Below, piece by piece: positions 1,011-50,954 of a stretch of DNA of 52,317 nucleotides. The notes below the pieces were generated by a model. That model was not told the origin of the DNA, made no database searches, and worked only from the letters and a program-made list of their open reading frames with translations. Each line of letters begins with the position of its first letter. The first letter of the stretch is position 1. The translations under genes and the position numbers were made by a program. This DNA is from Oscillospiraceae bacterium (GTDB taxonomy: Bacteria; Bacillota; Clostridia; Oscillospirales; Oscillospiraceae): NCBI GenBank assembly GCA_009781855.1, contig WQUY01000012.1, positions 1 through 52,317 of the forward strand, written 5' to 3'.

Positions 1011-3707
1011 ATGGCTGAAAAAGTAACGCATAGTATCGTCGTAGGCGGTGCGGTAACCATCCACACAGTCGACGGCGTAATCAGACGCGTAAGGCCGATT
1101 GTTCTGGATAACAACGACCCAAAAGGCTGGGTCATAAAAGCTCGCTCCAAAGTAGGCGGTCCGCAAGACACAGAATATACTCCAAACAGAAAGGTACAGC
1201 CTGCCTTTATTGCTCTGACAGAAAAAAACAGAGCATATTCATACGACCGTATCCGCTATCCGATGATTCGCGAGGACTTTGTAGAAACACCGGACGGCAA
1301 AAACCGCAATACAGAAAATCGTGGCACCTCAGGCTACAGACGTGCATCATGGGACGAGGCTCTTGACCTTGTCGTGCGCGAAATTAAACGTATCCACAAA
1401 CAATACGGACAAGAAGCGATAACCGCAATGACATCTTCCCACCACTCATGGGGTAATGTGGGTTATAAAATTTCGACTTTCGCAAGATTTTTCCGTATGC
1501 TCGGATACACAGAAGTAAAAGACAATCCCGACTCTTGGGAAGGCTTCACATGGGGCGCACCACACACCTACGGATATTACTGGCGCCTCGGCTGCCCGGA
1601 AACATTCGACCTGCTTGAAGACGGTCTGCAAAATGTTGAAACAATGATTATGTGGTCGCACGACCCCGACACAACCCACGGCGGTTATGCGGGCAATGAG
1701 TCGGTTATGTGGCGTCATTGGCTTGATGACATGGGTGTACAGTTCATTTACATCGATCCATTTAACAACTTCTCATCCATAAAGCAAGCTGACAAATGGT
1801 TTGCTCCACGTCCGGGAACAGACGCAGCGCTTGCTGAAGCGATTGCTTATGTTTGGGTTACGGAAGGCCTTTACGACAAAGAATATATTGCGAAACACGC
1901 CCACAGATTCGAAGAATGGTGTGATTACATCACCGGCAAAGGCACTGACAAACTCGCAAAAACTCCGAAATGGGCTGAGTATGAAACAGGCATCCCGGCA
2001 GCAGATATCAAAGCGCTGGCTCGCCGCTGGGCATCAACAAAGACCATGGGCGGTTCGGGAATGCGTGCAGGATTCGGCGGTGTGTGCCGTACAGTTAATG
2101 GCACGGAATTTGCGCGTACAATGGTACTCCTCTTTGCAATGCAAGGTATGGGCAAGCCCGGCCAAAATATGTGGGGCGGAAACACCGGCTCACCAATGGA
2201 TTATGATTTCTGGTTTGGCGGATACTCCGATCCGCTTGCAATGATTTGGAATGAACCGATTGCAGACAACGTCGCAGTCAACCCAGTTACCCAAAAGCTT
2301 TACAGACCTAATCTGCCTGATGCAATCCTCAATGGCCATTTTGAGTGGTATGGCGAGGGATTCTGCGGCCAGGGTATCGACCACGAATTTACAGAAAATA
2401 TTTACCCGAAACCCGGTTGCTCAAAGGTTCATATGTTCTGGCGTTATGGTGGAACATTCATGGGCACAATGCTTGACACGAACAAATGGGTAAGGATGTA
2501 CCAGAGTCCGGAACTCGAATTCGTAGTCAATCAGGACATACATTTCCACGGCGAGGCGCGTATGGCCGATGTCGTTCTTCCGGCATGTACAAGCCTTGAA
2601 AGAGTTGACATCGGTGAGCTATGTAGCTCCGGTAATGGTGGCTACCAATCTCACTCACAAACAGGCAATAGCTGGCAAGTCGTCGTATTCCAGGACAAGG
2701 CGATAGAACCTCTTTGGGATTCACGCTCAGACTACTGGATATTTGCTGAAACAGCCAAGAAACTCGGTTGGGGCGAGCAGTTTACCGAAGGCCGCACAGA
2801 GCTTGACTGGTGTAAACGTTATTGGGAAAAATCCGATCTTTGCGACAGAATTTCATGGGAAGATTTCATGAAAAAAGGCTATTTCGTACCCGGTGTGCCG
2901 GAAGACCGCGTTCGCCGTTACGGATTCCGTTGGTTTGCGGAAGGCTTCCCCTGCGACACCCCGAATCACAAACAATTCCAGGAAGAAGGAAAGCTCGGCA
3001 CATTCACAGGAAAATGGGAATTTGTTTCAGAGAGCCTTCAATACTGGGCACCGCACGATGAAATCAGAACTCCGATTGCAACGTACAAGCATTCATGGGA
3101 AGGCCATCATTCGATAAAAGCAAAGAAATATCCTTTCCATCTGATTTCACCGCACCCAAGGTTTGACTATCACACCCAACACAATTCATCGACGCCTTGG
3201 TTCTGGGAAATCCCGGAAAATAGGGTATATTTGAATGGAAATCCATACCTCGTTGCTCGTATCCATCCGGAAAAAGCAGCGGAAAAAGGAATCAAAGACG
3301 GCGATGTAATCGAGCTCTTCAACGAGCGTGGTTCTGTGCTGTGCGTGGCAATCGTTACATACCGTTGTGAAGTCAATACGATTCATGCTTTCGGTTCATC
3401 CGGTATCTACAACCCGGTAGAGCCTGGTATGGAATCCATGGATATCGGCGGTTGCGTCAATCTGTTGACACCCGGCAGACTGATTGGCGATATGGTACCC
3501 GGAATGGCGCCGAACTCAACGCTTATGGATGTCCGCAAATGGGAAGGTGAGCTTCCGAAAGGCCAATTCTTCGAAGATAAACTCGATAAGGTCGCAAAGG
3601 AAGGCGATCCGGATGCGGAAACCTGCATTGAGATCATTGAGGGCCATGGATTTGAAAAGATCCAGGAGAAAGTCCGGAAGAATTATTTGAAGGGAGCAGG
3701 TGTGTAA
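1011..3707 (+). CDS. athL: Pyrogallol-phloroglucinol transhydroxylase, large (molybdopterin) subunit
   Basis: An 898-residue member of the DMSO-reductase molybdopterin family. It lacks the usual N-terminal Fe-S Cys motif, as is known for the Pelobacter acidigallici transhydroxylase large subunit (about 875 residues). The active-site stretch DNPDSWEG falls at 171-178, putting Asp174, Ser175 (Mo ligand) and Trp176 at the numbers I recall from the Pelobacter structure. His144 and Tyr152 also coincide, and Tyr405 is one off from Tyr404. The enzyme moves hydroxyl groups between pyrogallol and a 1,2,3,5-tetrahydroxybenzene cosubstrate, a net non-redox isomerisation to phloroglucinol in the cytoplasm. 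The stop overlaps the small-subunit start as TAATG. Strong ribosome binding site AAAGGAGA. No Tat signal is seen. Confidence 0.9.
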   Translation: MAEKVTHSIVVGGAVTIHTVDGVIRRVRPIVLDNNDPKGWVIKARSKVGGPQDTEYTPNRKVQPAFIALTEKNRAYSYDRIRYPMIREDFVETPDGKNRNTENRGTSGYRRASWDEALDLVVREIKRIHKQYGQEAITAMTSSHHSWGNVGYKISTFARFFRMLGYTEVKDNPDSWEGFTWGAPHTYGYYWRLGCPETFDLLEDGLQNVETMIMWSHDPDTTHGGYAGNESVMWRHWLDDMGVQFIYIDPFNNFSSIKQADKWFAPRPGTDAALAEAIAYVWVTEGLYDKEYIAKHAHRFEEWCDYITGKGTDKLAKTPKWAEYETGIPAADIKALARRWASTKTMGGSGMRAGFGGVCRTVNGTEFARTMVLLFAMQGMGKPGQNMWGGNTGSPMDYDFWFGGYSDPLAMIWNEPIADNVAVNPVTQKLYRPNLPDAILNGHFEWYGEGFCGQGIDHEFTENIYPKPGCSKVHMFWRYGGTFMGTMLDTNKWVRMYQSPELEFVVNQDIHFHGEARMADVVLPACTSLERVDIGELCSSGNGGYQSHSQTGNSWQVVVFQDKAIEPLWDSRSDYWIFAETAKKLGWGEQFTEGRTELDWCKRYWEKSDLCDRISWEDFMKKGYFVPGVPEDRVRRYGFRWFAEGFPCDTPNHKQFQEEGKLGTFTGKWEFVSESLQYWAPHDEIRTPIATYKHSWEGHHSIKAKKYPFHLISPHPRFDYHTQHNSSTPWFWEIPENRVYLNGNPYLVARIHPEKAAEKGIKDGDVIELFNERGSVLCVAIVTYRCEVNTIHAFGSSGIYNPVEPGMESMDIGGCVNLLTPGRLIGDMVPGMAPNSTLMDVRKWEGELPKGQFFEDKLDKVAKEGDPDAETCIEIIEGHGFEKIQEKVRKNYLKGAGV

Positions 3708-4576
3708 TGAGATTAGGTATTGCTGTTGATTCACGCAGGTGCATGGGCTGCTGGTGCTGCTTTACAGCCTGTAAGGACGAACATTGCGGATTTGCCTCAA
3801 AGCTTTCCGCTGCGCAACCGATGATGGGTCAAAAATGGATAGATGTTCGTGAGTGGGAACGCGGGGACAGCTCAAGACGTGTAAAATCAGCGTCTGTAGC
3901 GACCTTGTGTGCGCACTGTGAAGAGCCGGCTTGTATGAAAGCAAGCAAAGACGGCGCTGTATATAAAAGGGATGACGGCATAGTGATTATTGACCCGGAT
4001 AAATCAAAAGGTCAAAAAGCAATTGTTGACGCTTGTCCGATAAAAGTTGTTTTTTGGAACGAAGAGCTTGAAATTCCGCAAAAATGCACCATGTGTGCAG
4101 AGTTGCTCGATGATCCGGAGTATCTTGCATACTTGGGTGACCCGGCGCTGAAACAGCCACGTTGCGTGGAGGCTTGTCCGAACCAATGTCTGTACTTTGG
4201 TGATCTTGATGACCCGAAATCAGATATTGCAAAGATTGTTGCCTCGCAAAAGAACACTCAGCTTGAAGAGTTCGGTGGCAAAGAAACTAATGTCAAGTGG
4301 CTCAATGTTCCGACAAGATTCCTCGCGGGCACGGTTTATCAGCCTGAGGAATTGGAAGAAGTCCTGATTGGTGCAAAAGTCAAACTGACTTGTAAGGAAA
4401 CAGGCGAAACTTGGGAAACTGAGACAAACTATTTCGGGGACTGGGAAGTTGAATGGCTACCCAAGAACAAAAAAATCGACGTAGTGATCAGCGCCGAAGG
4501 ATACAAACCAGTCACCTGCACCGCAAGTACCGAAAAAGACCATTATGTCGGCATGACATACATGGAAAAAGCGTAG
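3707..4576 (+). CDS. athS: Pyrogallol-phloroglucinol transhydroxylase, small Fe-S subunit
   Basis: A 289-residue electron-transfer subunit. The N-terminal two thirds carry several Cys groups for [4Fe-4S] clusters. The first is C12-x2-C15-x2-C18-x3-C22, followed by CAHCEEPAC, CTMC and CVEACPNQC. From about residue 205 there is a separate beta-rich domain resembling carboxypeptidase-regulatory/Cna-B-like folds. That extra C-terminal barrel is a hallmark of the transhydroxylase beta subunit and is absent from ordinary DmsB/NrfC proteins. The start overlaps the athL stop by one base, so translation is coupled. Length is close to the roughly 274 residues of the Pelobacter protein. The subunit pairing makes the substrate call much firmer than either gene alone. 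Confidence 0.9.
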   Translation: MRLGIAVDSRRCMGCWCCFTACKDEHCGFASKLSAAQPMMGQKWIDVREWERGDSSRRVKSASVATLCAHCEEPACMKASKDGAVYKRDDGIVIIDPDKSKGQKAIVDACPIKVVFWNEELEIPQKCTMCAELLDDPEYLAYLGDPALKQPRCVEACPNQCLYFGDLDDPKSDIAKIVASQKNTQLEEFGGKETNVKWLNVPTRFLAGTVYQPEELEEVLIGAKVKLTCKETGETWETETNYFGDWEVEWLPKNKKIDVVISAEGYKPVTCTASTEKDHYVGMTYMEKA

Positions 4577-19515: not shown

Positions 19516-19572
19516 GGTTTTGCCGGGAGCTCTTAGCCATTGCTCCGCCGAAAGACCGCACACCGACCTTTG

Positions 19573-19843
19573 AAAATGCAATATACCCGCTGACTTGACA
19601 GCCGGCTCGAAGTCGGTTGCCTTGCGGCACACGTAAGATTTCGCTTAATGCTGCTCGGTTCCCCGCCTGACATGATTCACGAATTTACGTTGCGCAAGAC
19701 CGACTCTTCATCGCTGCTTATCAAGGGCTGACGATACATCACAAGTCCGGGGGACGGGATTCATTCCTGCTGTAGCGGGTTGCAGGTTATAGGGCACCGC
19801 TAACTCCCCAACTAGTGCGGCCTTTCGCCGGAGCAAAAAGGCT
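19573..19843 (-). ncRNA. ffs: Signal recognition particle RNA (large, Bacillus type)
   Basis: On the minus strand the Alu-domain core reads GTTGGGGAGTTAGCGGTGCC followed by TATAACCTGCAACCCGCT. The S-domain apical loop is TGTCAGGCGGGGAACCGAGC then AGCATTAAG, the conserved helix-8 signature that binds Ffh. The two ends pair (TGCAACCCGCT with AGCGGGTATATTGCA) to close the long helix 5. The length of about 250-270 nt matches the large SRP RNA of Gram-positive bacteria. Position just upstream of dnaX agrees. Ends are approximate: the 5' end is placed seven bases after the -10 box and the 3' end at the closing stem. Confidence 0.93.
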
Positions 19844-39217: not shown

Positions 39218-40135
39218 ATGGATATTACAAAAAATGAAATTAGCAACTTTGCAAAATCTCTTGGAATGAGCAAGTGTGGTTTTGCGGGTGTAGATAGATT
39301 TGCACAATCACCCAAGGGCAACCATCCCTGTGACATTTTGCCTGGTTGCAAGTCGGTTATAGTTATAGGCTCAAATCTTCTGGATGGAGTAGTTCAAGCC
39401 AATTTCCGAGCCTTTGAAGACGGTCGCCAAGATCTAAAAGGCATATATGGCACATATGGCTATACGATGTTGCCCAATTTTGAGCTCACATACTCTTGCT
39501 ATGCAATTGCAAAATTTATTGAATCCAACACCGGAGCGCTTGCCACCCCATGCTCTACCGGCCCCATGACTAATGGTATGCAAATAAGCATTCGTCATGC
39601 CGCTGTTGCAGCTGGATTGGGTGAGTTCGGATACATGAGTATTGTACTCACCCCTGAATATGGCCCACGTATTCGTTTTGGTGTAATCCTTACCACACTT
39701 GAGTTGGAGCAAAGCCCGATGTACAACGGGCCAAGACTCTGCAATCCGGAAAAATGCGGAATATGCGCAATGGTTTGCCCAACGGGTGCAATTCGAGCGT
39801 GTGGTACTCATGAACTGGATCATATAGAGATGGGAGACAAAAAATATGATTACACCCATGTTGATGTGCCGAAATGCCGAAAGGCGCTCCAGTCCATGAC
39901 AAAACAACTCGGTGGGGCAGAAGATTATCTGCCAACCGAAAACCCGACCATTGAGCAGCTTTTTGAAGCTGAGGCACAAATGCCAATAGGAGGCAGAGGC
40001 TTGCAACATATCGACTCATGGAATTGCGGCAGATGTCAAATGTATTGCCCGGTAGGTGATTGGAGTGCGCGATACAAACAAAGGGGGCTGAGTAGAGGTC
40101 CTAAATTCGCGTTTGGAGATGAAGACAAACACTAA
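39218..40135 (+). CDS. QueG/reductive-dehalogenase-like iron-sulfur protein, no. 1
   Basis: 305 residues. The middle part (about 105-165: TNGMQISIRHAAVAAGLGEFGYMS, GPRIRFGVILT) is the nitroreductase-like segment shared by epoxyqueuosine reductase and reductive dehalogenases. Two cluster motifs follow: C180-x2-C183-x3-C187-P and C270-x2-C273-x3-C277-P. It lacks the HEAT-repeat tail of true QueG and any Tat signal, so it is a soluble cytoplasmic relative. It may carry a corrinoid, but the sequence does not show one. It starts the island, 33 bases before a LysR gene. Role: electron delivery or a reductive step in the island pathway, by inference. Confidence 0.82.
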   Translation: MDITKNEISNFAKSLGMSKCGFAGVDRFAQSPKGNHPCDILPGCKSVIVIGSNLLDGVVQANFRAFEDGRQDLKGIYGTYGYTMLPNFELTYSCYAIAKFIESNTGALATPCSTGPMTNGMQISIRHAAVAAGLGEFGYMSIVLTPEYGPRIRFGVILTTLELEQSPMYNGPRLCNPEKCGICAMVCPTGAIRACGTHELDHIEMGDKKYDYTHVDVPKCRKALQSMTKQLGGAEDYLPTENPTIEQLFEAEAQMPIGGRGLQHIDSWNCGRCQMYCPVGDWSARYKQRGLSRGPKFAFGDEDKH

Positions 40136-40168
40136 TCAGTAGCGTGGGGTAAACAGGGGGGAACGAAT

Positions 40169-41056
40169 TTGAATACATTTCAATTGCAGTGCTTTGTCAC
40201 ACTATCGAATACTGCGACATTTAGTGAAGCCGCAGAAAGACTGTATATTTCACAGTCATCGTTTTCAAACAATATTCAATCAATTGAACAAGAACTGGGC
40301 GTAAATCTCATTGTCCGAGGAAAAGGTATGCTCACATTCACAGAAGCGGGAACTGTTTTTCTATCATATGCAAAAAGAATAGTTGATGAGTTTGAAAAAG
40401 TGCCACTACTTCTGCGTGACTACAAAAGTTCACTGGAAAACAGGGTTTTGATATATGCAGACCCTCTGAGCAGCTATGCGTACAACACGCTGCTTGTTGA
40501 GTTTAATAAAGAGCATCCTGAGATTCAAACAGATATTATCGAAATAGGTGACGAAACCCTATATAACATGATGGAATCAAACAACAATATCATCGGTATT
40601 GTGTTTTCACCAACAAAGAAAGCGCATCTGGGCACAATGTGTCTCACGCTTGTTTCCGATAGGTTGGCAGCCCTTGTGGTCAAGTCGCACCGGCTTGCGT
40701 TGAGCCGCCGCATCAAGGTATCAGAAATCAGGAATGATGAAATCCAAATCATCTCAGACAGGCAATCTCGTTTTTTGAATGACTTTACATTGGCACAGTT
40801 TCGAAAAGAAGGATTTATTCCAAATGTAGCGCCTCTGGATTTATGGTACAACACGGCAAAGGAGACAATCAGAGAGCTTGGTATTTCTGCAGTGTTTCCT
40901 GAGCAAGTGGCAAAAATTTTTCTCCGGCCTGGCTTGAGAGTTGTGGGGCTTGATGTGGAGAAGTTCTACATCAACGTAGTCATGTCAGAAAACTGTAAAA
41001 ATGCAGCAGCCATGTGCTTTTATAATTACGCATCAGAGTTTTTGAAAAGAAAGTAA
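40169..41056 (+). CDS. LysR-family transcriptional regulator
   Basis: 295 residues. The N-terminal winged helix spans about 1-60 (FVTLSNTATFSEAAERLYISQSSFSNNIQSIEQELGVNLI), followed by the linker helix and a periplasmic-binding-like effector domain (about 90-290). The start codon is TTG with GGGGGGAA upstream. It lies between the first Fe-S gene and AOR no. 2 and is the only regulator in the island, making it the prime candidate to control these genes through the 36-bp element at 41133 and 44466. Co-inducer unknown. Confidence 0.93.
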   Translation: MNTFQLQCFVTLSNTATFSEAAERLYISQSSFSNNIQSIEQELGVNLIVRGKGMLTFTEAGTVFLSYAKRIVDEFEKVPLLLRDYKSSLENRVLIYADPLSSYAYNTLLVEFNKEHPEIQTDIIEIGDETLYNMMESNNNIIGIVFSPTKKAHLGTMCLTLVSDRLAALVVKSHRLALSRRIKVSEIRNDEIQIISDRQSRFLNDFTLAQFRKEGFIPNVAPLDLWYNTAKETIRELGISAVFPEQVAKIFLRPGLRVVGLDVEKFYINVVMSENCKNAAAMCFYNYASEFLKRK

Positions 41057-41075
41057 ATACTATTACAACTATTGC

Positions 41076-41114
41076 ATTAAAGCTGATGGGCGTTCGATTC
41101 CCGCCAGCTTTAAT
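41076..41114. repeat. Hairpin repeat family (GTTYGACTCYCG), copy 4
   Basis: ATTAAAGCTG (41076-41085) and CAGCTTTAAT (41105-41114) form a 10-bp outer stem round a GGG/CCC inner pair. The core GATGGGCGTTCGATTCCCG matches copies at 16306, 19494 (minus) and 24403. It follows the LysR gene by 20 bases and may stop its transcript. Confidence 0.65.
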
Positions 41115-41132
41115 TTGCCATTTGTGCAAATA

Positions 41133-41168
41133 AATCGTCATTTGGCAAGTTAATGTGTCCATATTTGA
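41133..41168. promoter_or_regulatory. 36-bp shared element, site A (upstream of AOR no. 2)
   Basis: The core CGTCATTTGGCAAGTT and the following TGTGTCCATATTTGA match site B at 44466-44501 at 31 of 36 positions. Within site A's neighbourhood TTGCCA (41115) and TGGCAA form an inverted pair 20-odd bases apart, the dyad type LysR proteins use. It lies 127 bases before the AOR start. Confidence 0.65.
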
Positions 41169-41294
41169 TAGCGAACTTGCCCATAATGGACTCCAAATCT
41201 ATTTACTCCAAAAAGTTGCTGGTGTATAATGCCGAAAATGATATTTGCGGAGAAGTCGCAAAATTATATCAAGACGAAAAGGAGAAACTTAAGA

Positions 41295-43148
41295 ATGCAC
41301 GGATTTGTTGGTAAAGTACTAAAGGTAGATTTAAGTGATCAATCCTTTATAATCGAAGATTTGAACGAACAATGGGCAAAAGATTTTTTGGGAGGGCCTT
41401 CACTCGGTGCCAGATATCTCTATGATCTCATGCCTGCAAATACCCCTGTTTACGCTCCGGAAAGTGTGATTGGTTTTGTAAGCGGGCCGGTCAACGACAC
41501 AAAATCCTTTATGGGCGGCAGATATACAGTGGTCAGCAAATCACCGGTTTATAACGGATTTAACGACTCAAACTCAGGTGGCACATTCGGTCCATATTTG
41601 AAGAGGTCAGGGTTTGATGCTATTTTTGTTAAAGGCATCTCAGAAAAACCGGTCTATCTATTCATTGATGACAGAAAAGTGGAATTCCGTGATGCCTCTG
41701 CGCTATGGGGCAAAAAAACAGTCGAAACCGAAGAAGCGCTGAGAGCAGAAATCGGAGATAATAATTTCTGTGCAGCACTCATAGCCCCTGCTGGTGAACG
41801 TCTATCACATATGGCTGCGATCATGAATGATGGCCACCGCGCTGCGGGCAGAGGCGGTTCCGGTGCAGTTATGGGCTCTAAGAAGCTAAAAGCAGTGGTG
41901 TGCCGCGGTACGCACACAGTCACTGTCGAAGATACTCAGGCTATAAAAGACATCAACAAATCCTGGCGCGCATATGCCGATGGCCCCGATGGGGCGAGAA
42001 TTGGCCCATGGAGTACACATGGCACAGCGGCTAACTACGAGCATTGTGTACTTCTGTCAGATGCCGGTATCAAAAACTGGGGTGGCCAACCTGCGGATAT
42101 GCCAGAAGAAATGGTCAAGCCACTGACAGGTGAAGTCATGGACGCGAAATACAAGGTCAAAAAATATGCATGCCATACCTGCAACATTGGCTGCGGTGCG
42201 GAATACCATGTTAAAGAAGGCGATTTGGATTACAAAACAGATCGTCCGGAATACGAAACGCTTGGCGCATTCGGCAGCATGTTGCTCAATAGTGATCCGG
42301 TCAGTGTAACATATTGCAATCTCCTTTGTAATGAATACGGCTTTGACACCATTTCAATGGGCGGTACCATTGCGTGGCTGATGGAGTGTTATGAAAATGG
42401 GCTTTTCACACTTGAAGAGCTAGAAGGTATTGACCTCAAATGGGGCAATGCAGAGGCAATCATGGCTATGACAAAGAAAATTTGCGACTACGAAGGTATT
42501 GGCGTTCACCTGCATGATGCAACCGTTAAAGCTGTCGCGCATTTTGGTCGTGGTGCTGAGTATCTTGGTGAAGCAAGTGGAATAGAGATTCCTCACCATT
42601 GCGGAAGATGCAATCCGGGCATGGCAAGAACATTTACATTCGACCCGACTCCGGGCAGGCATGTAAAGGGCGGCAGAGGTGCAGGTTACGGATTCGCGCC
42701 GCCTGAAGTGAAATATAACTACGACGATTTTGGCGAGCCAGACAAAGCAGGCGTTATCAATGCTGAATATGATAATCTGTCCGGGTTCTGCCATTTTGCA
42801 TTTCTTCTTGAGCCTGGTTCTAAGTTTAAGTATCTCGATGCGGTGTTCGGTCATAAGCACACGAGAGAAGAGCTGGATGTTTTGGGATTGCGATCGTTTG
42901 CAATGCGTGCCGCATTTAACATAAGAGAAGGCATTACAAGGAAAGACTACAAAATCTCTCCGCGCAATATCGGAGAGCCGCCAATTGAAGGAGGCCCTCT
43001 GGATAACGTCACTATTCCTCTTGAAAATCTGGCCGACCAGTTTTTTACAGCAATGAATTGGCATGTGGATACAGGTATTCCAACCAAAGCGTTTCTGGAA
43101 GAAATCGGCGGGCTGGAATGTGTGCTCAAAGATATCTACCCAGCATAA
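41295..43148 (+). CDS. Aldehyde:ferredoxin oxidoreductase family protein, no. 2
   Basis: 617 residues from the ATG at 41295, which has AAAAGGAGA upstream; the frame opens 22 codons earlier without a site. Family features are the N-terminal GFVGKVLKVDLSD, FMGGRYTVVSKSP, GSGAVMGSKKLKA, the [4Fe-4S] motif C293-x2-C296-x3-C300 (CHTCNIGC), and a distal Cys in SGFCHFAF. It is a tungsto-bis-pterin enzyme using ferredoxin. It has clear differences from AOR no. 1 around the active site (HHCGRCNPGMARTFTFDPTPG), so a different aldehyde or even a ring-type substrate is possible; BamB-type ring reductases belong to this family. It is placed in the island under the shared element. Confidence 0.9.
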   Translation: MHGFVGKVLKVDLSDQSFIIEDLNEQWAKDFLGGPSLGARYLYDLMPANTPVYAPESVIGFVSGPVNDTKSFMGGRYTVVSKSPVYNGFNDSNSGGTFGPYLKRSGFDAIFVKGISEKPVYLFIDDRKVEFRDASALWGKKTVETEEALRAEIGDNNFCAALIAPAGERLSHMAAIMNDGHRAAGRGGSGAVMGSKKLKAVVCRGTHTVTVEDTQAIKDINKSWRAYADGPDGARIGPWSTHGTAANYEHCVLLSDAGIKNWGGQPADMPEEMVKPLTGEVMDAKYKVKKYACHTCNIGCGAEYHVKEGDLDYKTDRPEYETLGAFGSMLLNSDPVSVTYCNLLCNEYGFDTISMGGTIAWLMECYENGLFTLEELEGIDLKWGNAEAIMAMTKKICDYEGIGVHLHDATVKAVAHFGRGAEYLGEASGIEIPHHCGRCNPGMARTFTFDPTPGRHVKGGRGAGYGFAPPEVKYNYDDFGEPDKAGVINAEYDNLSGFCHFAFLLEPGSKFKYLDAVFGHKHTREELDVLGLRSFAMRAAFNIREGITRKDYKISPRNIGEPPIEGGPLDNVTIPLENLADQFFTAMNWHVDTGIPTKAFLEEIGGLECVLKDIYPA

Positions 43149-43164
43149 TAATAACTAAAAGAAT

Positions 43165-43196
43165 GGGGCGGCGCACTTTATGAAGTGAGCCGCCCC
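43165..43196. terminator. Bidirectional terminator between AOR no. 2 and the Zn-ADH gene
   Basis: GGGGCGGC (43165-43172) and GCCGCCCC (43189-43196) with an inner CACTT/AAGTG stem, between convergent genes. Confidence 0.82.
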
Positions 43197-43220
43197 GAAC
43201 TGATTAAAAAGACTTTAGCG

Positions 43221-44348
43221 CTATGCTTCGTTGCAGATGATGACATTTTTGATGGGGCTACCGTTTTCCGCATCGTCAATGGCTTCTTTGATATCATCAA
43301 GCTTGTATTTTTTGGTGATGAATGAATCGAGATCAACCTGGCCGGTGCGGTACATTTCCATATAGAGTGGAACATCACGACGCAGTGTGATGCCACCCAT
43401 TACACAACCGGTGATTTTTTTGCTGAGCAAAACCTCCATGAAGTTAAACTCGTCCATCTGTTCATTTCTGGGGTGACCATGCCCAACAACGACCATCTGT
43501 CCATACGGAGCAGTGATATCATAAGTCATGCGCTTTACCTTGCCCGCAACGGCGACCATGCTATGATCGACGCCATAACCAACCTTGGCATTGCCTTTTG
43601 TGATTTCATGGACAGCCTTGACAACATCTTTGGTCTCTTTGGGGTTGATGCAGTGCGTCGCCCCGTATTTTTTGGCAAGCTCCAATTTTGCAGGATTGAT
43701 GTCAATCGCAATAATCGGGACACATCCGCAATATTTTGCGCCCATAATTGCAGACAGGCCTACACCTCCGCAACCGACAACAGCATAGCTTTGGCCTGGC
43801 TTAGGTTGTGAGCGATTGAGTACAGCGCCAAAGCCGGACATGAATCCACAAGCCAAAATAGATGCAATTTCAAAAGGAATGTCGTCATCAACTTTGCACA
43901 CTGCGGACTCATGGGTATTGCAATATGTGGCAAAACCGGAAGCGCCTGACATGGTTTGAACGATGCGTTCTCCATTGAGGCGCGTAAATGGGCTGAGCTC
44001 ACGAAATGACATAGGCGGAATATTTTCACAGAACCAGTGGCGGTCATTGTAGCACTGTACGCAGTTTCCGCAGCCTTGGCGAATCAATGAACTGAGTACA
44101 CGATCGCCGGGCTTTACATAAGTGACTTGCTCACCAACAGCATCTACGATGCCTGCAATTTCATGCCCTGCAGAGCCGGGGCCGTCATACTCGCCATGTT
44201 CACCGTCCAAACCGTGGATATCACTATGGCAAATCGTACATGTCATAACCTTGATGCGCACATCATTTGGGCCGGGCTCGGCCAGTTCTACCTCTTCGAC
44301 AACGATTTCCTTTCCCATTTTGGGTGCGACTGCCAGTTTAACTCTCAT
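43221..44348 (-). CDS. Zinc-dependent alcohol dehydrogenase
   Basis: 375 residues from the ATG at 44348 (GGGGGAG eight bases upstream). Catalytic zinc ligands are C40 and H62 (CTICHSDIHG; GHEIAG), with the structural zinc Cys set C93, C96, C99 and C107 (GCGNCVQC...C). The Rossmann motif is GCGGVG. It is a medium-chain NAD(P)-dependent dehydrogenase acting on a primary or secondary alcohol or its aldehyde. It is divergent from the second Fe-S gene with site B between them, so the two are probably co-regulated. Substrate not readable; aryl and branched alcohols are common in this subfamily. Confidence 0.92.
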   Translation of the reverse strand: MRVKLAVAPKMGKEIVVEEVELAEPGPNDVRIKVMTCTICHSDIHGLDGEHGEYDGPGSAGHEIAGIVDAVGEQVTYVKPGDRVLSSLIRQGCGNCVQCYNDRHWFCENIPPMSFRELSPFTRLNGERIVQTMSGASGFATYCNTHESAVCKVDDDIPFEIASILACGFMSGFGAVLNRSQPKPGQSYAVVGCGGVGLSAIMGAKYCGCVPIIAIDINPAKLELAKKYGATHCINPKETKDVVKAVHEITKGNAKVGYGVDHSMVAVAGKVKRMTYDITAPYGQMVVVGHGHPRNEQMDEFNFMEVLLSKKITGCVMGGITLRRDVPLYMEMYRTGQVDLDSFITKKYKLDDIKEAIDDAENGSPIKNVIICNEA

Positions 44349-44465
44349 TATTAAGCTCCCCCAATCCATAATTATTTAATCCAAAATCGCCCATATAACA
44401 TAACAAAACGTCGATTTTCACATGATTGATTTGCACAAGTATATAGATTTTTTTAAGTTATAATC

Positions 44466-44501
44466 AATCGACATTTGGCAAGTTTTTGTGTCCGTAATTG
44501 A
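44466..44501. promoter_or_regulatory. 36-bp shared element, site B (Zn-ADH / Fe-S divergent gap)
   Basis: The core CGACATTTGGCAAGTT and TGTGTCCGTAATTGA match site A (41133-41168) at 31 of 36 positions. It begins two bases after a TATAAT at 44459-44464, so a bound regulator would sit on the promoter start region. The gap 44349-44629 holds no other feature I can support. Confidence 0.65.
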
Positions 44502-44629
44502 ATCGAAAAAACGAGTGTTTTCAAGGACTTTTTTAGCTAAAGAGGATGACAAACGAGACATCAGATGATAAATTACTTATTAATCATAGGTGAAATCGTA
44601 TTCACATATTTTGAAAGGATACTTAATGA

Positions 44630-45571
44630 ATGACAAGAGAAAAATTACAAAAGCTCATTAATGACTTTAGCGACAACTCAACGCTAAACTACCTTAGTGC
44701 AAAGGGCACCCATAAAGATACTGATACAGACAATTATGCAAAAAACAACATGTATCAGCATGTCGGTAATGGCTTTGATGATGATATGCTCGGAGCTGAT
44801 GAAGAAAGCGGGCTAATCGGTATGCGTTTTTATCGACATCCGGTTTTTGCGATTGCAAGAGCAGACGACCCGATGTTTGAAGATATCAAACGTCCTGAAG
44901 TTGTTGGCAAACATCACCTCAACCCCACAGATTGGCTCAGTGATGCAAAGTCAGTTATTACATTTTTCCTGCCTTTTAACCATGACACTGTTGAAGCGAA
45001 CAAGAAAGATCCTGAAGTGCCCGCGATTGAGTGGGTTTGTACGCGTGTAGATGGGCAGAGATTTCTCCTGGCTTTAGGCACTGCTGTGCGTAATGCACTT
45101 ATCGAAGAGGGATATACCGCAGTGGCTCCGTATACCGAGGACAACTACATCATGCAAGTGAACCTAGAGCCGCCACCCGGTACAGAACATGTGCCACCAT
45201 ACTCAACCAACTGGTCAGAGCGGCATGTAGGTGTGGTTACCGGTCTGGGGACATTCGGTCAGTCAACAAACTTTATCTCAAAAATCGGCTGTGCAGGCAG
45301 GCTAATCAGTGTTGTAACCAGTTGGGAAATTCCACCCGATGAGCGTGAATATGGAACAGACTGGCTGGGATACTGCAACGACTGTGGTCTTTGTATCAAG
45401 AAGTGTAAAGGTAATGCGTACTATCCTGACAGACATGGAAAAGACCATGCGCTGTGCAGCAAGCAAATTCGGAAAGTTTGCGAACCATTTGCACCACGGT
45501 ATGGATGCGGAAAGTGCCAATCAGGCATTCCGTGTGAGTATACGCCACGACCTAAGAAAGGCAAAAAATAA
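44630..45571 (+). CDS. QueG/reductive-dehalogenase-like iron-sulfur protein, no. 2
   Basis: 313 residues. The central segment (about 145-235: LALGTAVRNALIEEGYTA, SERHVGVVTGLGTFGQSTNFISKIG) is the same nitroreductase-like core as in QueG and reductive dehalogenases. The C-terminus is Cys-rich: C249-x2-C252-x2-C255-x3-C259, then C276, C284, C293, C296 and C302. The second cluster motif is irregular (CGKCQSGIPC), lacking the usual CxxCxxxCP. The gene starts a plus-strand run to the end of the island. It may hand electrons to, or reactivate, an island enzyme. Ribosome binding site GAAAGGA. Confidence 0.8.
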   Translation: MTREKLQKLINDFSDNSTLNYLSAKGTHKDTDTDNYAKNNMYQHVGNGFDDDMLGADEESGLIGMRFYRHPVFAIARADDPMFEDIKRPEVVGKHHLNPTDWLSDAKSVITFFLPFNHDTVEANKKDPEVPAIEWVCTRVDGQRFLLALGTAVRNALIEEGYTAVAPYTEDNYIMQVNLEPPPGTEHVPPYSTNWSERHVGVVTGLGTFGQSTNFISKIGCAGRLISVVTSWEIPPDEREYGTDWLGYCNDCGLCIKKCKGNAYYPDRHGKDHALCSKQIRKVCEPFAPRYGCGKCQSGIPCEYTPRPKKGKK

Positions 45572-45591
45572 AAAATTCGGAGGCACAAAAC

Positions 45592-45882
45592 ATGTCAATA
45601 AGAGTAGTAGCAAGGCATAATATTAAACCTGAGAAATTAGACGAATTCATTAGCCTGATGAAACAACTTGTTGAAAACACAAAGCGCGAAGACAGCGGTG
45701 TTATTAACTATGGCCTATTTCAGGACATAACAGACCCTAACTGCATAGCAATGCTTGAGGAGTGGGAAAGCGAAGAAGCTATTGCTGAGCATCTGAAAAA
45801 ACAGCATTTCCTCGACCTTCTGCCAGCAATGAGAGCATGTATGGCAGGCCAATCAACTTTTAATAACTTTAAGTCAATATAA
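45592..45882 (+). CDS. Antibiotic biosynthesis monooxygenase (ABM/YgiN-like) domain protein
   Basis: A 96-residue dimeric alpha/beta-barrel type protein. Landmarks are IRVVARHNIKPEKLDEFISLMKQLVENT at the start and MLEEWESEEAIAEHLKKQHF in the middle. Family members include cofactor-free quinol monooxygenases, haem-degrading enzymes and cyclases or decarboxylases acting on phenolic or polyketide substrates. Oxygen use is implausible in this anaerobe, so a non-oxidative isomerase or lyase-type role on a quinol-like intermediate is more likely. It is 20 bases after the Fe-S gene with GGAGG, clearly in the same operon. Confidence 0.85.
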   Translation: MSIRVVARHNIKPEKLDEFISLMKQLVENTKREDSGVINYGLFQDITDPNCIAMLEEWESEEAIAEHLKKQHFLDLLPAMRACMAGQSTFNNFKSI

Positions 45883-45900
45883 CAGAAAGGACAAAGAAGC

Positions 45901-47157
45901 ATGAGAATACCTAATATGGAGTTTGGCCTTAGGCAACATATTTACCAAGGCGCGGGATGCGTATCTACGATTAAAGACATATTAGCACGCGAAAACTGGA
46001 CACGTGTTTTGCTTGTATGTGGACCCACCTTGTATAAATCCGGAGCGGTCAAGCATATCGAAAACCACATCAAAGAATCCGGTGCGCAGGTCGAGGCTTT
46101 CACCAATATCCGCCCAAATCCGGAAGCGGAGACTATCGACAATGAGGGCGTGAAATTGGCGTTGAAATTCAAGCCAGATGTCATCGTTGCCTGTGGCGGC
46201 GGTAGTACATTGGATACCGCAAAAGGCATTGCTATAGTCGGTGATTCAGGCAAGCCTGTCTTAGACTTTATTATCCCCAAATTCCCGCCGGGCACAAAGG
46301 CAACACACAATACACTGCCAATGGTAGCGATTCCAACAACAGCGGGTACAGGCAGTGAAGTTTGTAAAAATGCGGTTATCTCTGACAAAGACGGACTGAA
46401 ATTAGTGATTGCACATGATGCGATTGTACCAAAGTATGCCTTGCTTGATCCTGATTTGCTCAAGACAATGCCAGCATCTGTTGCCGCAGCGACAACTATG
46501 GATGCCTTTGTCCAGGCACTGGAAACTTACACAAATCGTAATGCCAACGATTTTACACGTACTCAGTCCTTGCGCGCACTCGAACTCGTAGGCAAGTATA
46601 TTAGAGCTTATGTTGCAAATCCTGCAGATGAAGAAGCGGCAAATGGCATCAGTCTGGCATGTATGTATGCTGGATTTTCACTGGGCTATGCAGGAATAGG
46701 GCAAGTTCACATTCTTTCTCATCCATTGGGTGAAGCGCCGTTTGATATCGCCCATGGTGATGCATGTGCGATGCTGCTACCAGCGGTCATAGAATTTAAT
46801 GGGCTGGCATGTAAGGAATTATATAGAGCAGCTTATAATGCCCTGACGGGCGAGCATCTTACAAGTGCAGAATTTGAAGTGCAATACCTCATAGATTGGG
46901 TTGTAGAGCTCAATTCAGATATTCATGTGTGTAGAGATAAATCATTTTCAGATTATGGCTATGTTGAAAAAGAGCATCTGGAAATGATCATGCAACATCC
47001 GATTGTTTCAGGTGCGCTGGCACGCAATGGGACGGCAGATTCGACTGAGTTTCCGCGCCATACCAGCGCTGATGATATGCGTTATCTGGTTAAGCGTACT
47101 GCCATTTATTCTCAGGCGCAAGCAGACTTTGCCAAAGCGCTGCTTGAGGATGTGTAA
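45901..47157 (+). CDS. Iron-containing alcohol dehydrogenase, no. 1
   Basis: 418 residues of the group III ADH family. The NAD-binding GGGS is at 99-102. Metal-site positions are D201, Q205, H270 and H285, with H274 beside them (HILSHPLG, AHGDACA). The first His of the usual Asp-His-His-His set is Gln here (DAFVQALE), a variant also met in other members, so the metal may be Zn or bound differently. It probably interconverts an aldehyde and a primary alcohol with NAD(H). It lies 18 bases after the ABM gene and before the structured leader of the glycyl radical gene. The ATG follows AAAGGA. Confidence 0.92.
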   Translation: MRIPNMEFGLRQHIYQGAGCVSTIKDILARENWTRVLLVCGPTLYKSGAVKHIENHIKESGAQVEAFTNIRPNPEAETIDNEGVKLALKFKPDVIVACGGGSTLDTAKGIAIVGDSGKPVLDFIIPKFPPGTKATHNTLPMVAIPTTAGTGSEVCKNAVISDKDGLKLVIAHDAIVPKYALLDPDLLKTMPASVAAATTMDAFVQALETYTNRNANDFTRTQSLRALELVGKYIRAYVANPADEEAANGISLACMYAGFSLGYAGIGQVHILSHPLGEAPFDIAHGDACAMLLPAVIEFNGLACKELYRAAYNALTGEHLTSAEFEVQYLIDWVVELNSDIHVCRDKSFSDYGYVEKEHLEMIMQHPIVSGALARNGTADSTEFPRHTSADDMRYLVKRTAIYSQAQADFAKALLEDV

Positions 47158-47163
47158 ATAATA

Positions 47164-47313
47164 TCAGAGGTCATTCAAATTTCCTTGGAATCAAGTAATA
47201 TGCCCCGAATTTTTTGTGCGTATGGGTCAGCTTGCCCGACATGCGCGAAAAACCGTGTCATACCACTTGATTCCGGTTTGACTCTGAGCTGCAAATGACC
47301 TACTTAAGGAGGA
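47164..47313 (+). promoter_or_regulatory. Structured 5' leader of the glycyl radical gene, candidate cis-regulatory RNA
   Basis: Nested long-range complementarity is seen directly. AGGTCATT (47168-47175) pairs with AATGACCT (47294-47301), GGAATCAAGT (47187-47196) with ACTTGATTCC (47265-47274), and TATG (47199-47202) with CATA (47259-47262); an inner hairpin (GCG-ATG / CAT-CGC) spans about 47218-47246. TCAGAG (47164-47169) can instead pair with CTCTGA (47282-47287), which competes with the outer helix. The 3' side ends five bases before AAGGAGG. Mutually exclusive helices next to a ribosome binding site are a switch-like design. It matches no riboswitch class I know. Confidence 0.6.
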
Positions 47314-47319
47314 GTGTTT

Positions 47320-49743
47320 TTGTTTAAGCTCAGCCCAATAACCGATAGAGTCTCAAAAACTCGTGAAAAGTATCGGGAAGCAGCGCCTGCAATCTGCCTT
47401 TCCCGGTACAAGCTGATTACAGAATATTATAAAAACAACCCTGCCCAGAGCGGGATTTTAAGGCGTGCACGCAACTTTAAAAATATCTGTGAGCACATCG
47501 CTATACGTGTTGAAGAAGGTGAACTCATAGTAGGCACTGCGACATCCATGTATAGGGGTGTGCAACTCTATCCGGAGCATTCGATTGCCTGGATACTGGA
47601 CGAAGTGCGTACAGGGCTTATTTCAACGCGTGACTGTGATCCTTACCTGATCTCTGACGAGGACAGAGATTATTTGCTCGAAACAGGTGACTATTGGATT
47701 GGAGAATGCAATAGCGCAAAGGTTGATGCCTATATTCCAAATGGTTGGTTTGGCCATGCGCCTAACGGAGTTACGTTGTTTGGAAAAAGCGGACAGGCCC
47801 AACATCCTGTTGGCCACTTCATAACAAGCTATGACCGCGCTATAAATGTTGGATTTGGTGCGATAAAGGCTGAGGCTGAGATGCATATCAGCAGATTAGA
47901 AAAAGAAAGTATCCCGGCTGAAACGATTGACAACTACAACTTCTACAGAGCGGTTGCGATCGTCTGTGAAGGTGTGATTATTCTTGCAAAGCGTTATGCA
48001 GCACATGTTTCGGAGCTGGCTGAAAATGAAGAGCATAATAGCCGCAAGCAGGAAATGCTCATGATGGCCGACACACTCAATTGGATTATGGAAAATCCAT
48101 GCCGCAATTTCTTTGATGCTGTTCAAGCGACATATATGTATCAAATCTGCATGACTTTGGATGGTTGTATGCACGCCATAAGCTATGGCAGAATTGACCA
48201 ATACTTTGGGAAATTTTATGAGCAAGACATCAGCGCCGGTGTGCTTACCCCTGCATATGCACAAGAGATTATAGACATGTTCTTCATAAAAACCGCAGAA
48301 ATCAACAGAGTTTGGGGACATGTAGCAACGCGGACAACAGGTGGCTACACAACCAATCAACTCATAACACTAGGTGGTGTGACCAAAGAGGGTGCCGATG
48401 CAACAAATCCTGTGACCTACATGTGTTTGCAAGCTTCAGCGCGGCTTGTGTTGCACACGCCTCCGCTTGCGATGCGCATCCATGAGGATACCCCGGCGGA
48501 GCTATGGGAGGCAGCCATCGAAACAACAAGGCTGGTTGGAGGGATTCCGACATTTGAAAATGACGACATGATTATCCCTGCGCTCATGAAGCGTGGATTG
48601 AGTTTAGAGAGCGCAAGAAACTATGGCTTGATTGGTTGTGTTGAACCGGCAGGGTGTGGTGATGAATGGCCGACATGCGGCGGTACAGGCACGGACACCT
48701 ACCTGAACCTCATGGGTACGCTTATGCTGGGGATCAACAATGGTTATTATACAATGCCGGACAGATGGGGTAACGTTTCGGATAATCAAGTAGGATTGCC
48801 AACAGGGTATTTATACGAAATGGAATCCATGGAAGAAATCGTTGATGCATATAAAAAGCAGACTGAGTTTTTTGTGCAGTGGTATGCCAAATATGTGAAC
48901 TCCTATGAGTATGTTACTCGCCAAAATATACCATTGCCGGTAATCTCAGCAACAATGGAAGGATGTATGGAGTCCGGAAAGGACGTGACATGGGGCGGTG
49001 CAAAATATAACTCTGTAGGTGTGGCCGGTGTTGGCATAGGCAATGTTGCAGACAGCCTTAATATAATCAAACATCTGTGTTTTGACACAAAAAAGTGTAC
49101 AACCAAAGAGCTATATGATGCAATCATGGCCAATTGGGACGGCTATGAAGAGTTATATCACTATATCGTCTCTGCTGCACCTCACTTTGGTAATGCGGAT
49201 AGTCAGGCGGACATGTTTGCCGCTGAGGCATCAGAAATATTTGTTGATGCGGTTGACGCGTGCAGCGGTCCGAGATGCAAGTTTGCTGCGGGCCTGTATC
49301 CCGTTACAGTGCACGTTATCATGGGCGCCATGACACAGGCAACGCCCGACGGTCGCCGCAAAGGAGAGCCGTTGGCTGATGGCATATCACCTGTGCAGCA
49401 GATGGACAGACAAGGGCCGACCTCATCGCTTTTATCCATCAGCAAAATAGACCAGAGCCGCTACTCAAATGGCACGCTGCTCAACATGAAATTTCATCCC
49501 AGCTCAGTTTCAAATGAAGAAGGCATTACAAAGATGGCACATCTGATCAAGGCTTATTTTGGTATGGGCGGTATGCAAATGCAAATAAACTTTGTCTCTG
49601 CAGATGAGCTGCGAGAAGCTCAGCTAAAGCCACAAGAGTACAAAAACTTAGTCGTCCGTGTGGCCGGATTTTCTACATATTTTGTCGATCTCTTTGAAGA
49701 TTGTCAAAATGATTTGATCAACAGAACCGAATATGCATTTTAA
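47320..49743 (+). CDS. Glycyl radical enzyme of the diol dehydratase / choline TMA-lyase type
   Basis: 807 residues counted from a TTG at 47320, seven bases after AAGGAGG; a GTG at 47314 is only one base from that site. The fold is pyruvate formate-lyase-like. The thiyl-radical Cys440 and acid/base Glu442 lie in GLIGCVEPAG; the glycyl radical Gly783 is in RVAGFSTYF, with Phe where most members have Tyr. The GCVEP motif and GHFITSYDRAINVGF and SYGRIDQYF stretches place it with dehydratases and C-N or C-S lyases, not with formate-lyase or aryl-succinate synthases. The product is probably an aldehyde, matching the AOR and ADH genes around it. No radical-SAM activase is encoded in the window. Confidence 0.92.
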   Translation: MFKLSPITDRVSKTREKYREAAPAICLSRYKLITEYYKNNPAQSGILRRARNFKNICEHIAIRVEEGELIVGTATSMYRGVQLYPEHSIAWILDEVRTGLISTRDCDPYLISDEDRDYLLETGDYWIGECNSAKVDAYIPNGWFGHAPNGVTLFGKSGQAQHPVGHFITSYDRAINVGFGAIKAEAEMHISRLEKESIPAETIDNYNFYRAVAIVCEGVIILAKRYAAHVSELAENEEHNSRKQEMLMMADTLNWIMENPCRNFFDAVQATYMYQICMTLDGCMHAISYGRIDQYFGKFYEQDISAGVLTPAYAQEIIDMFFIKTAEINRVWGHVATRTTGGYTTNQLITLGGVTKEGADATNPVTYMCLQASARLVLHTPPLAMRIHEDTPAELWEAAIETTRLVGGIPTFENDDMIIPALMKRGLSLESARNYGLIGCVEPAGCGDEWPTCGGTGTDTYLNLMGTLMLGINNGYYTMPDRWGNVSDNQVGLPTGYLYEMESMEEIVDAYKKQTEFFVQWYAKYVNSYEYVTRQNIPLPVISATMEGCMESGKDVTWGGAKYNSVGVAGVGIGNVADSLNIIKHLCFDTKKCTTKELYDAIMANWDGYEELYHYIVSAAPHFGNADSQADMFAAEASEIFVDAVDACSGPRCKFAAGLYPVTVHVIMGAMTQATPDGRRKGEPLADGISPVQQMDRQGPTSSLLSISKIDQSRYSNGTLLNMKFHPSSVSNEEGITKMAHLIKAYFGMGGMQMQINFVSADELREAQLKPQEYKNLVVRVAGFSTYFVDLFEDCQNDLINRTEYAF

Positions 49744-49766
49744 TATTATAAAGGGGATATAAACTG

Positions 49767-50954
49767 ATGTTAGATTTTGAATTTTATGCACCAACAAGAA
49801 TAATGTTTGGTAGAGATGCTTTGGCAGGGTTGCCGGCTCAGCTTCATAAAGCAGAAGCAAAGAAACTGTTTCTTGTACATGATGGCAGCAAAGGTACACA
49901 ACACATCGTAGATGAGGTTGAGCAAGTACTCAAAGCAAACAATATCTCATATGTTGAGTTTTCAGGAATTCAACCCAATCCGCTGCTTTCACGTGTTGTA
50001 GACGGCGTTAAGGTTTGCAAGAAAGAAAATATAGACTTCATACTGGCTGTCGGCGGAGGTAGTGTAATCGACACCTGCAAGGGTATCGCAGCTGGGGTCA
50101 AGCTTAAAGACAATGAAGATATTTGGAAAGATTATCTGTTTCCTAAAAACAGATTCACAGATGCAATACCCATGGGTGTTGTTCTGACTATTCCTGCTGC
50201 CGGTAGTGAAGCTTCGTTTGGCACTGTAATTACACATGATGAGCTTAAAATGAAGAGATACAGCGGGGGAGAAGCACTGCTTCCGAAGTTTGCAATCCTA
50301 AATCCTGTTTTTACAACATCTCTGCCGCCTTACATGACGGCTTGCGGTGTGTTTGATATCCTTTCACATCTTATGGAACGTTATTTTGTGAACTTTGATC
50401 ATATCGATTTATCAGACCGTATGATTGAGGCGGTTGCCCGAACTGTACTCAACTGCGCTCCGGTTCTTGTAAAAGATCCGACAAATTATGATGCGCGAGC
50501 CGAAATTATGTGGGCTGGATGTGTTGCGCACAATAAAATTCTTGAAATGGGTCGTACGCATGGTGACTGGGCAAGCCATGATATTTCACATGAAATAAGC
50601 TCAACCTATGATGTTGCCCATGGTGCAGCGCTGGCGATTATTACCCCCGCCTGGATGAAATATGTGTATAAGCATAATCCTGCGAAGTTCCACCAATTTG
50701 CTGTACGTGTGTTTGATATTGACATAGCATATGACAAGATGGATTGCATCGCTGAGGAGCTGGTGGATCGTCTTGTAAACTTCTGTAAAGTTATGGGTCT
50801 GGCGACAACGCTCAGCGAGATTGATATTGACAGCAGCAAGTTTGAACTTATGGCAAGCAATGCGCTGGATGGTAGGGAGCATGTGGGTACGGGCAATGGT
50901 ATCTATTTGCTTAATAAGGAAGATGTACTCAATGTACTGAAAATGGCGGAGTAA
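49767..50954 (+). CDS. Iron-containing alcohol dehydrogenase, no. 2 (butanol dehydrogenase/YqhD type)
   Basis: 395 residues. Motifs are GGGSVIDTCKG (97-107), the metal set D197, H201, H271 and H285, with H275 alongside (WASHDISHEISSTYDVAHG). The full Asp-His-His-His site and the DVAHGAALAI motif point to the BdhA/YqhD subgroup, NAD(P)H-dependent reducers of aldehydes. It starts 23 bases after the glycyl radical gene with AAAGGGG, so the aldehyde made by that enzyme is its likely substrate. It is the last gene of the island. Confidence 0.93.
   Translation: MLDFEFYAPTRIMFGRDALAGLPAQLHKAEAKKLFLVHDGSKGTQHIVDEVEQVLKANNISYVEFSGIQPNPLLSRVVDGVKVCKKENIDFILAVGGGSVIDTCKGIAAGVKLKDNEDIWKDYLFPKNRFTDAIPMGVVLTIPAAGSEASFGTVITHDELKMKRYSGGEALLPKFAILNPVFTTSLPPYMTACGVFDILSHLMERYFVNFDHIDLSDRMIEAVARTVLNCAPVLVKDPTNYDARAEIMWAGCVAHNKILEMGRTHGDWASHDISHEISSTYDVAHGAALAIITPAWMKYVYKHNPAKFHQFAVRVFDIDIAYDKMDCIAEELVDRLVNFCKVMGLATTLSEIDIDSSKFELMASNALDGREHVGTGNGIYLLNKEDVLNVLKMAE

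Follow-up and report, generated by a model that had tools for sequence, protein, structure and literature searches.

A glycyl radical enzyme (GRE) that is placed by its sequence in an uncharacterized branch of dehydratase/eliminase-type GREs, with no described member found, is encoded in a 52,317-nucleotide stretch of DNA from an Oscillospiraceae bacterium (contig WQUY01000012.1, assembly GCA_009781855.1; the whole stretch is termed the window below). The gene lies in a region of nine genes (39218–50954) together with those for an aldehyde:ferredoxin oxidoreductase (AOR), three alcohol dehydrogenases (ADHs; one zinc enzyme, Zn-ADH, and two members of the Fe-ADH family, FeADH1 and FeADH2), two QueG-like Fe–S proteins (QueG1 and QueG2), a LysR-family regulator, and a small ABM-domain protein. 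The branch of the GRE, and not the gene island, is the most informative fact about this region. The best overall explanation, to which we assign a probability of roughly 45%, is that the GRE acts as an eliminase whose carbonyl product would be reduced by Fe-ADHs and possibly oxidized by the AOR. A search of the open-licence literature, with subscription papers lying outside it, returned no description of the branch and, in agreement with the preliminary description of this DNA, no described pathway with this gene set. Among the open-licence papers searched, PMC9295118 was the sole one to combine the terms glycyl radical enzyme, AOR, and alcohol dehydrogenase.

The Glycyl Radical Enzyme and Its Branch

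The protein is a PFL-like GRE by its domains (PFL-like, PF02901, 581.6 bits; Gly_radical, PF01228, 106.5 bits) and by the catalytic Cys442 and Gly785, with the GCVEP (Cys442-Val-Glu444) and RVAGFS motifs retained. Its scores lie below every NCBIfam equivalog cut-off listed, namely those of CutC (480 bits against 1050), HypD (509 against 1100), HpfG (572.5 against 1000), and HpsG (489 against 1000). Together with the tree described below, these cut-offs rule out an assignment as a choline, hydroxyproline, or sulfopropanediol enzyme. Among solved structures, glycerol dehydratase (1R8W, 523 bits, 36% identity) matches the sequence best, and an assignment as a glycerol or propanediol dehydratase is ruled out by the tree, where the GRE does not group with 1R8W, 5I2A, or 9RCO. 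The preliminary description had expected an enzyme apart from known kinds, and this was borne out by cut-offs and trees for choline lyase, glycerol/propanediol dehydratase, HypD, and HpfG, and by score for isethionate lyase (361 bits, far below the 523 bits of glycerol dehydratase).

The tree comprised 47 rows, 34 of which (the GRE and 33 relatives) formed one group with a support of 100/100. The other 13 rows were four sequences of the glycerol or propanediol dehydratase type, CutC, three HpfG and one HypD scoring over their cut-offs, two HypD relatives, and two untyped sequences; the long CutC and HypD branches meet, on the far side of the split from the GRE group. Outside the tree stand isethionate lyase, HpsG, PflD, YbiW, HplG, the arylacetate decarboxylases, and the arylsuccinate synthases; matched to the window GRE, each of their solved members has a lower score than glycerol dehydratase. 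Also left out of the trees were a Chloroflexi relative (locus L012, 29%), copies of the window GRE, the GRE of L011 (nearly a copy of L008), the GRE of L180, which is split, and the GREs of L155–L162, whose loci served for the survey of neighbors only. A first motif filter, which missed the sister clades, was replaced by a second one. A sister subclade comprises eight rows with GCQEI instead of GCVEP at the catalytic Cys (L009, L010, L038, L039, L088, L175:14059-16503, L178:10543-12987, and L182:9500-11950).

A structure of the GRE predicted from 10 sequences reached a pLDDT (predicted local distance difference test) of 80.8, with the loop 449–460 after Cys442 below 50, and Foldseek ranked propanediol and glycerol dehydratases best by E-value (TM 0.90–0.92). 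These dehydratases (1R8W, 5I2A, and 9RCO–9RCR) resemble the GRE in predicted fold, Cys-x-Glu, glycyl loop, and two aligned active-site His residues, but share 35–36% identity with it and lie outside its 100/100 branch; relative to them, the window GRE displays a Ser-to-Ala exchange, a loop after the Cys that is four residues longer, and no adjacent activase. HpfG, a sulfopropanediol dehydratase, is likewise of the GRE dehydratase type, and the genome encodes one of its own on contig C78 (1004.7 bits, over the HpfG cut-off). The glycerol dehydratase pocket pattern consists of a His, a His-Ser pair, and the Asp of a WHD segment; a literature search on the roles of these residues found no paper. 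The GRE displays this pattern in part: both His residues are conserved, aligning with those of GHV and NGHS; where NGHS has Ser, the window enzyme has Ala and the remaining 13 sequences of its 14-row clade have Gly; and a longer EWP(T/A)CGG loop takes the place of the WHD segment that follows the catalytic Cys. These two replacements would also suit an enzyme that breaks a C–N, C–S, or C–C bond, in the manner of CutC, isethionate lyase, or the decarboxylases, in place of a C–O bond, and CutC also lacks that Ser. Such a reaction nonetheless seems rather unlikely, as the C–O-cleaving dehydratases are the best matches by both sequence score and Foldseek E-value, and the two conserved His residues are missing from CutC.

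The window GRE forms the longest end branch within its 14-row clade. At positions where its 13 relatives do not vary, it differs from all of them 38 times, against 0 to 10 such private changes in each relative. Nine of the 38 fall in segments chosen beforehand (P 0.08, not significant); a set of segments chosen afterward gave P 6e-5. This divergence, along with the lack of an adjacent activase, would be expected of a paralogue, degenerate or idle, of the GRE on contig C15 of the same genome (G000:C15), an idea that we regard as improbable for an open frame with all catalytic residues intact and operon-like tight spacing. Some of the changes lie in pocket-side segments and could instead mean altered specificity, although the prechosen enrichment is weak. 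Gene content, catalytic residues, branch, and predicted fold are observations; activity of the GRE as an eliminase is probable.

At E ≤ 1e-150, searches with the GRE retrieved matches from 2 genomes among 295 in the order and from 7 among 321 in the class, with its own genome counted in both; at class level these matches take in sister clades as well as G599, whose GRE is of the glycerol dehydratase type. Within the genus, some GRE occurs at E ≤ 1e-100 in 13 of 19 genomes and one of at least 55% identity in 6 of 19 (own genome included), with up to eight GRE matches of all kinds in a single genome. The own genome (G000) encodes three GREs, i.e., the window enzyme, the C15 paralogue (55%), and the HpfG on C78. 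Two activases scoring over the TIGR02494 cut-off are encoded elsewhere in this genome, on C15 beside the 55% paralogue and on C1. In genome G594, one GRE is broken into two blast pieces (L180), and a full-length GRE is accompanied by two short GRE fragments (L182).

A Proposed Route and Its Genomic Neighbors

The genes for QueG2, the ABM protein, FeADH1, the GRE, and FeADH2 follow one another on one strand with gaps of 20, 18, 156, and 23 bp, a spacing that suggests a single operon as the likely arrangement; promoter and terminator scans returned nothing beyond chance. We infer the following chemistry, with activation of the GRE in trans. A radical S-adenosylmethionine activase encoded elsewhere in the genome would install the radical on Gly785, after which Cys442 would abstract a hydrogen from a hydroxylated substrate. 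Glu444 would assist the loss of a neighboring group, probably water, to give an aldehyde or ketone, and FeADH2, perhaps also FeADH1, would reduce this carbonyl with NAD(P)H. Were the product an aldehyde, the nearby AOR could, with ferredoxin, convert a fraction of it to the acid, and the substrate would thereby be disproportionated. A link between the GRE and FeADH2 is likely, and handling of the GRE product by the adjacent Fe-ADHs is slightly favored. Participation of the AOR in the same pathway is possible, if on the doubtful side, the support for this link being weak.

The AOR belongs to its family by AFOR_N and AFOR_C domains and by a CxxCxxxC motif plus a distal Cys, the Fe–S motif of AORs; its best solved relatives are 9mqx and 1aor. 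With these tungsten enzymes it shares both domains and the four candidate Fe–S ligand Cys residues, but no partner subunit gene was recognized beside it, and its role here is putative. DxxxH, the metal motif of Fe-ADHs, is present in eight of nine other aligned sequences of the family, the ninth (L174) reading DTYAK. FeADH2 has relatives of up to 45% identity in other genera. FeADH1 returned no match at E ≤ 1e-80 in 249 other sampled genomes of the family; the family samples contain just four genomes of the genus besides this one. At phylum level, a search of 328 other sampled genomes gave no FeADH1 match at E ≤ 1e-70.

The preliminary description had reasoned that radical elimination gives an aldehyde, which AOR and ADH then dismutate. 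Modest independent support for this logic comes from the single-contig genome G711 of another family, where an AOR, an activase, a 60%-identical GRE, and a Fe-ADH family gene lie on one strand over about 7 kb. Across 14 loci, an AOR and a Fe-ADH family gene together within 3 kb of the GRE were observed once against 0.003 expected, and singly once each against 0.17 (AOR) and 0.26 (Fe-ADH), where the expected numbers were computed with genome sizes that had been rounded, GRE ends that in two cases were approximate, and Fe-ADH lists in which a few matches fall below the Pfam cut-off. In G621, a Fe-ADH gene lies about 3 kb from the GRE, with no AOR within 280 kb. ABM proteins are also encoded near GREs elsewhere: a 57% relative of the window protein lies at a distance of about 2.5 kb in G305, and a further ABM protein at about 1.2 kb in L177.

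Several observations weigh against the proposed route. The TM-scores do not single out the dehydratases, since HypD, CutC, and other GREs reach 0.82–0.92. No GRE activase is encoded within the cluster, and FeADH1 has Gln in place of the first metal-ligand His (DAFVQ at 201–205). Neither the AOR of G711 (27%) nor its Fe-ADH is orthologous to the window genes, and tblastn with FeADH1 or FeADH2 at E 1e-6 missed that Fe-ADH; the case was moreover spotted post hoc, and catabolic genes cluster anyway. Besides the window, a Fe-ADH gene occurs within 5 kb of the GRE in 2 of 14 close-clade loci (0.38 expected). Nine of 10 AOR-centered loci, including that of a 66% relative in G305, are without GRE, Fe-ADH, or QueG relatives. 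The genome encodes eight AOR-family proteins in 2.4 Mb, two of them in the window, and the proximity of AOR and GRE may therefore be due to chance.

Neighborhoods were surveyed with home-made profiles, built from a few seeds picked by eye (several of them among the genes then counted), at 41 GRE loci including the window. AOR was found in two (the window and L174), Fe-ADH in six (the window, L009, L174, L175, L179, and L182), OYE-type reductases in eight (scores >500; three matches of 45–62 bits were dropped), URO-D-like proteins in 10, and activases in 11. Pfam confirmed the Fe-ADHs of L174, L175, L009, and L182 and the AOR of L174; the Fe-ADH of L179 lies beside a GRE in a locus of the glycerol dehydratase type. 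In L011, a longer antisense open reading frame (ORF) masked the GRE in the profile scan, and this locus was covered by tblastn. On the short contigs and stretches (L004, L007, L019, L083, L084, and the ~5-kb tblastn loci), absence of a neighbor is weak evidence. A tblastn search over 17 GRE loci returned a single match other than GREs and genes of the window itself, a 27% Zn-ADH in L008, and in the nine GRE-centered loci L082–L090 the relatives of window genes were limited to the ABM protein of G305. Ten other AOR-centered loci (L095, L132–L139, and L144) held no GRE or QueG relative. One of these (L144:10069-18340, G335) combines an AOR of 51% identity with Fe-ADH and Zn-ADH relatives 4–6 kb from it and two OYE genes in between, with no GRE. 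A conserved nine-gene system was rejected because neither the GRE-, QueG2-, and AOR-centered loci nor the FeADH1 searches revealed such a grouping. Lack of conserved neighbors was one of the outcomes that the preliminary description had named as refuting its proposal, and its coherent pathway falls on this point, the elimination logic retaining the support from G711.

The region could accordingly be a chance neighborhood of two or three unrelated modules, in which AOR, Zn-ADH, and QueG proteins have nothing to do with the GRE. We treat this as a serious contender at somewhat below even odds. It would account for the QueG pair being confined to the window among the 41 GRE loci, for the absence of a GRE from all 10 other AOR loci examined, for the number of AOR genes in the genome, and for the Zn-ADH gene on the opposite strand. 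It sits less well with the short gaps that tie QueG2 to the ABM gene and the ABM gene to FeADH1, with the G711 locus, and with OYE, URO-D, and MoaF genes, which in other loci adjoin QueG genes as well as GREs belonging to this branch. We judge the QueG, LysR, and Zn-ADH genes to be one or more adjoining modules.

The QueG-like Pair

The preliminary description had named two QueG/reductive-dehalogenase-like proteins. For QueG1 this is backed by weak model matches, both far below the curated cut-offs (reductive dehalogenase TIGR02486, 49.9 bits against 160.35; QueG TIGR00276, 40.8 against 200), and by residues 93–193, which match a reductive dehalogenase. QueG2 had no Pfam or NCBIfam match at E ≤ 0.001; its label draws on the double-cluster Cys pattern common to these proteins and on cross-matches of 28–30% to QueG1 relatives in L073, L075, and L077. 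A single-sequence structure model of QueG2 was unusable (pLDDT 31).

QueG2 has matches at E ≤ 1e-10 in 39 of 249 other sampled genomes of the family, and neighborhoods were inspected for the best 11 of 46 other matches. Relatives of QueG1 and QueG2 adjoin in six of these 11 (L071, L073, L074, L075, L076, and L077), with a LysR gene between them in L076. Nearby genes encode URO-D-like proteins (L072, L074, L075, and L077), OYE (L071), and MoaF (L073), and L077 adds Pfam-confirmed aconitase X and FAD oxidoreductase genes; the pair recurs in catabolic clusters. OYE and URO-D also neighbor GREs of this branch, as does MoaF in L157 (whose GREs are outside the tree); these common neighbors suggest that the QueG pair and the GRE branch draw on the same set of partners. 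Among the loci examined, the pair and a GRE occur together in the window only (0 of 40 other GRE loci). The QueG1/QueG2-like pair and the LysR gene appear to derive from a separate, recurring catabolic module.

Layout of the Region and Biological Meaning

All nine genes are full-length ORFs at or near the positions given in the preliminary description and match the families it named, although it had counted eight and the Zn-ADH gene lies on the opposite strand, between QueG1-LysR-AOR and QueG2-ABM-FeADH1-GRE-FeADH2 (Table 1).

Table 1. Features of the Region 39218–50954
Feature	Positions	Strand	Evidence and remarks
QueG1-like double [4Fe-4S] protein, 305 aa	39218..40135	+	weak reductive dehalogenase/QueG model matches; Fer4 domain; Cys clusters 175-187 and 270-277
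LysR-family regulator, 295 aa	40169..41056	+	PF00126, PF03466; begins 33 bp past QueG1
AOR family, 639 aa	41229..43148	+	PF02730, PF01314; C315, C318, C322, C521 present
Zn-ADH, 382 aa	43221..44369	-	PF08240, PF00107; relatives are class III/P ADH
QueG2-like Fe-S protein, 313 aa	44630..45571	+	Cys clusters 249-259 and 276-302; label given by eye
ABM-domain small protein, 96 aa	45592..45882	+	PF03992, 65.7 bits
FeADH1, 418 aa	45901..47157	+	PF00465; one metal-ligand His replaced (D201xxxQ205)
Spacer, 155 nt, long imperfect inverted repeat	47158..47312	+	RNA folding
GRE	47314..49743	+	PF02901, PF01228; Cys442, Glu444, Gly785; start probably 47320
FeADH2, 395 aa	49767..50954	+	PF00465; DxxxH metal motif intact; begins 23 bp past GRE

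The GRE probably starts at TTG 47320 rather than GTG 47314, because AAGGAGG lies just upstream and the start then agrees with those of relatives. Folded as 47155–47312, the spacer upstream of the GRE gives a long hairpin (minimum free energy −47.8 kcal/mol, z −4.0); it matched no Rfam family, and no second copy was found in the window or the loci examined. The preliminary description had spoken of a pyrogallol-using organism, and a pyrogallol transhydroxylase is encoded elsewhere in the window: the stretch 1011–4576 carries the gene for the large subunit of pyrogallol hydroxytransferase (4v4c, 745 bits) and then one for an Fe–S subunit, with thiolase and SDR (short-chain dehydrogenase/reductase) genes up to 6708. 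A bacterial large signal recognition particle RNA lies at 19556–19820 on the minus strand.

Where a GRE subfamily has been newly characterized, a distinct anaerobic reaction has tended to come to light, on choline, hydroxyproline, or sulfonates, for example. More speculatively, and with well below an even chance of being right, the 34-row branch may be an undescribed, multireaction group of Clostridia GREs that, together with OYE, URO-D-like, and MoaF-like proteins and the QueG-like pair, degrades plant or other cyclic compounds, with the window enzyme as a member that has adapted to a new substrate and become coupled to Fe-ADH and AOR. The GRE branch and its recurrent partner genes are testable candidates for the anaerobic breakdown of perhaps plant-derived compounds.

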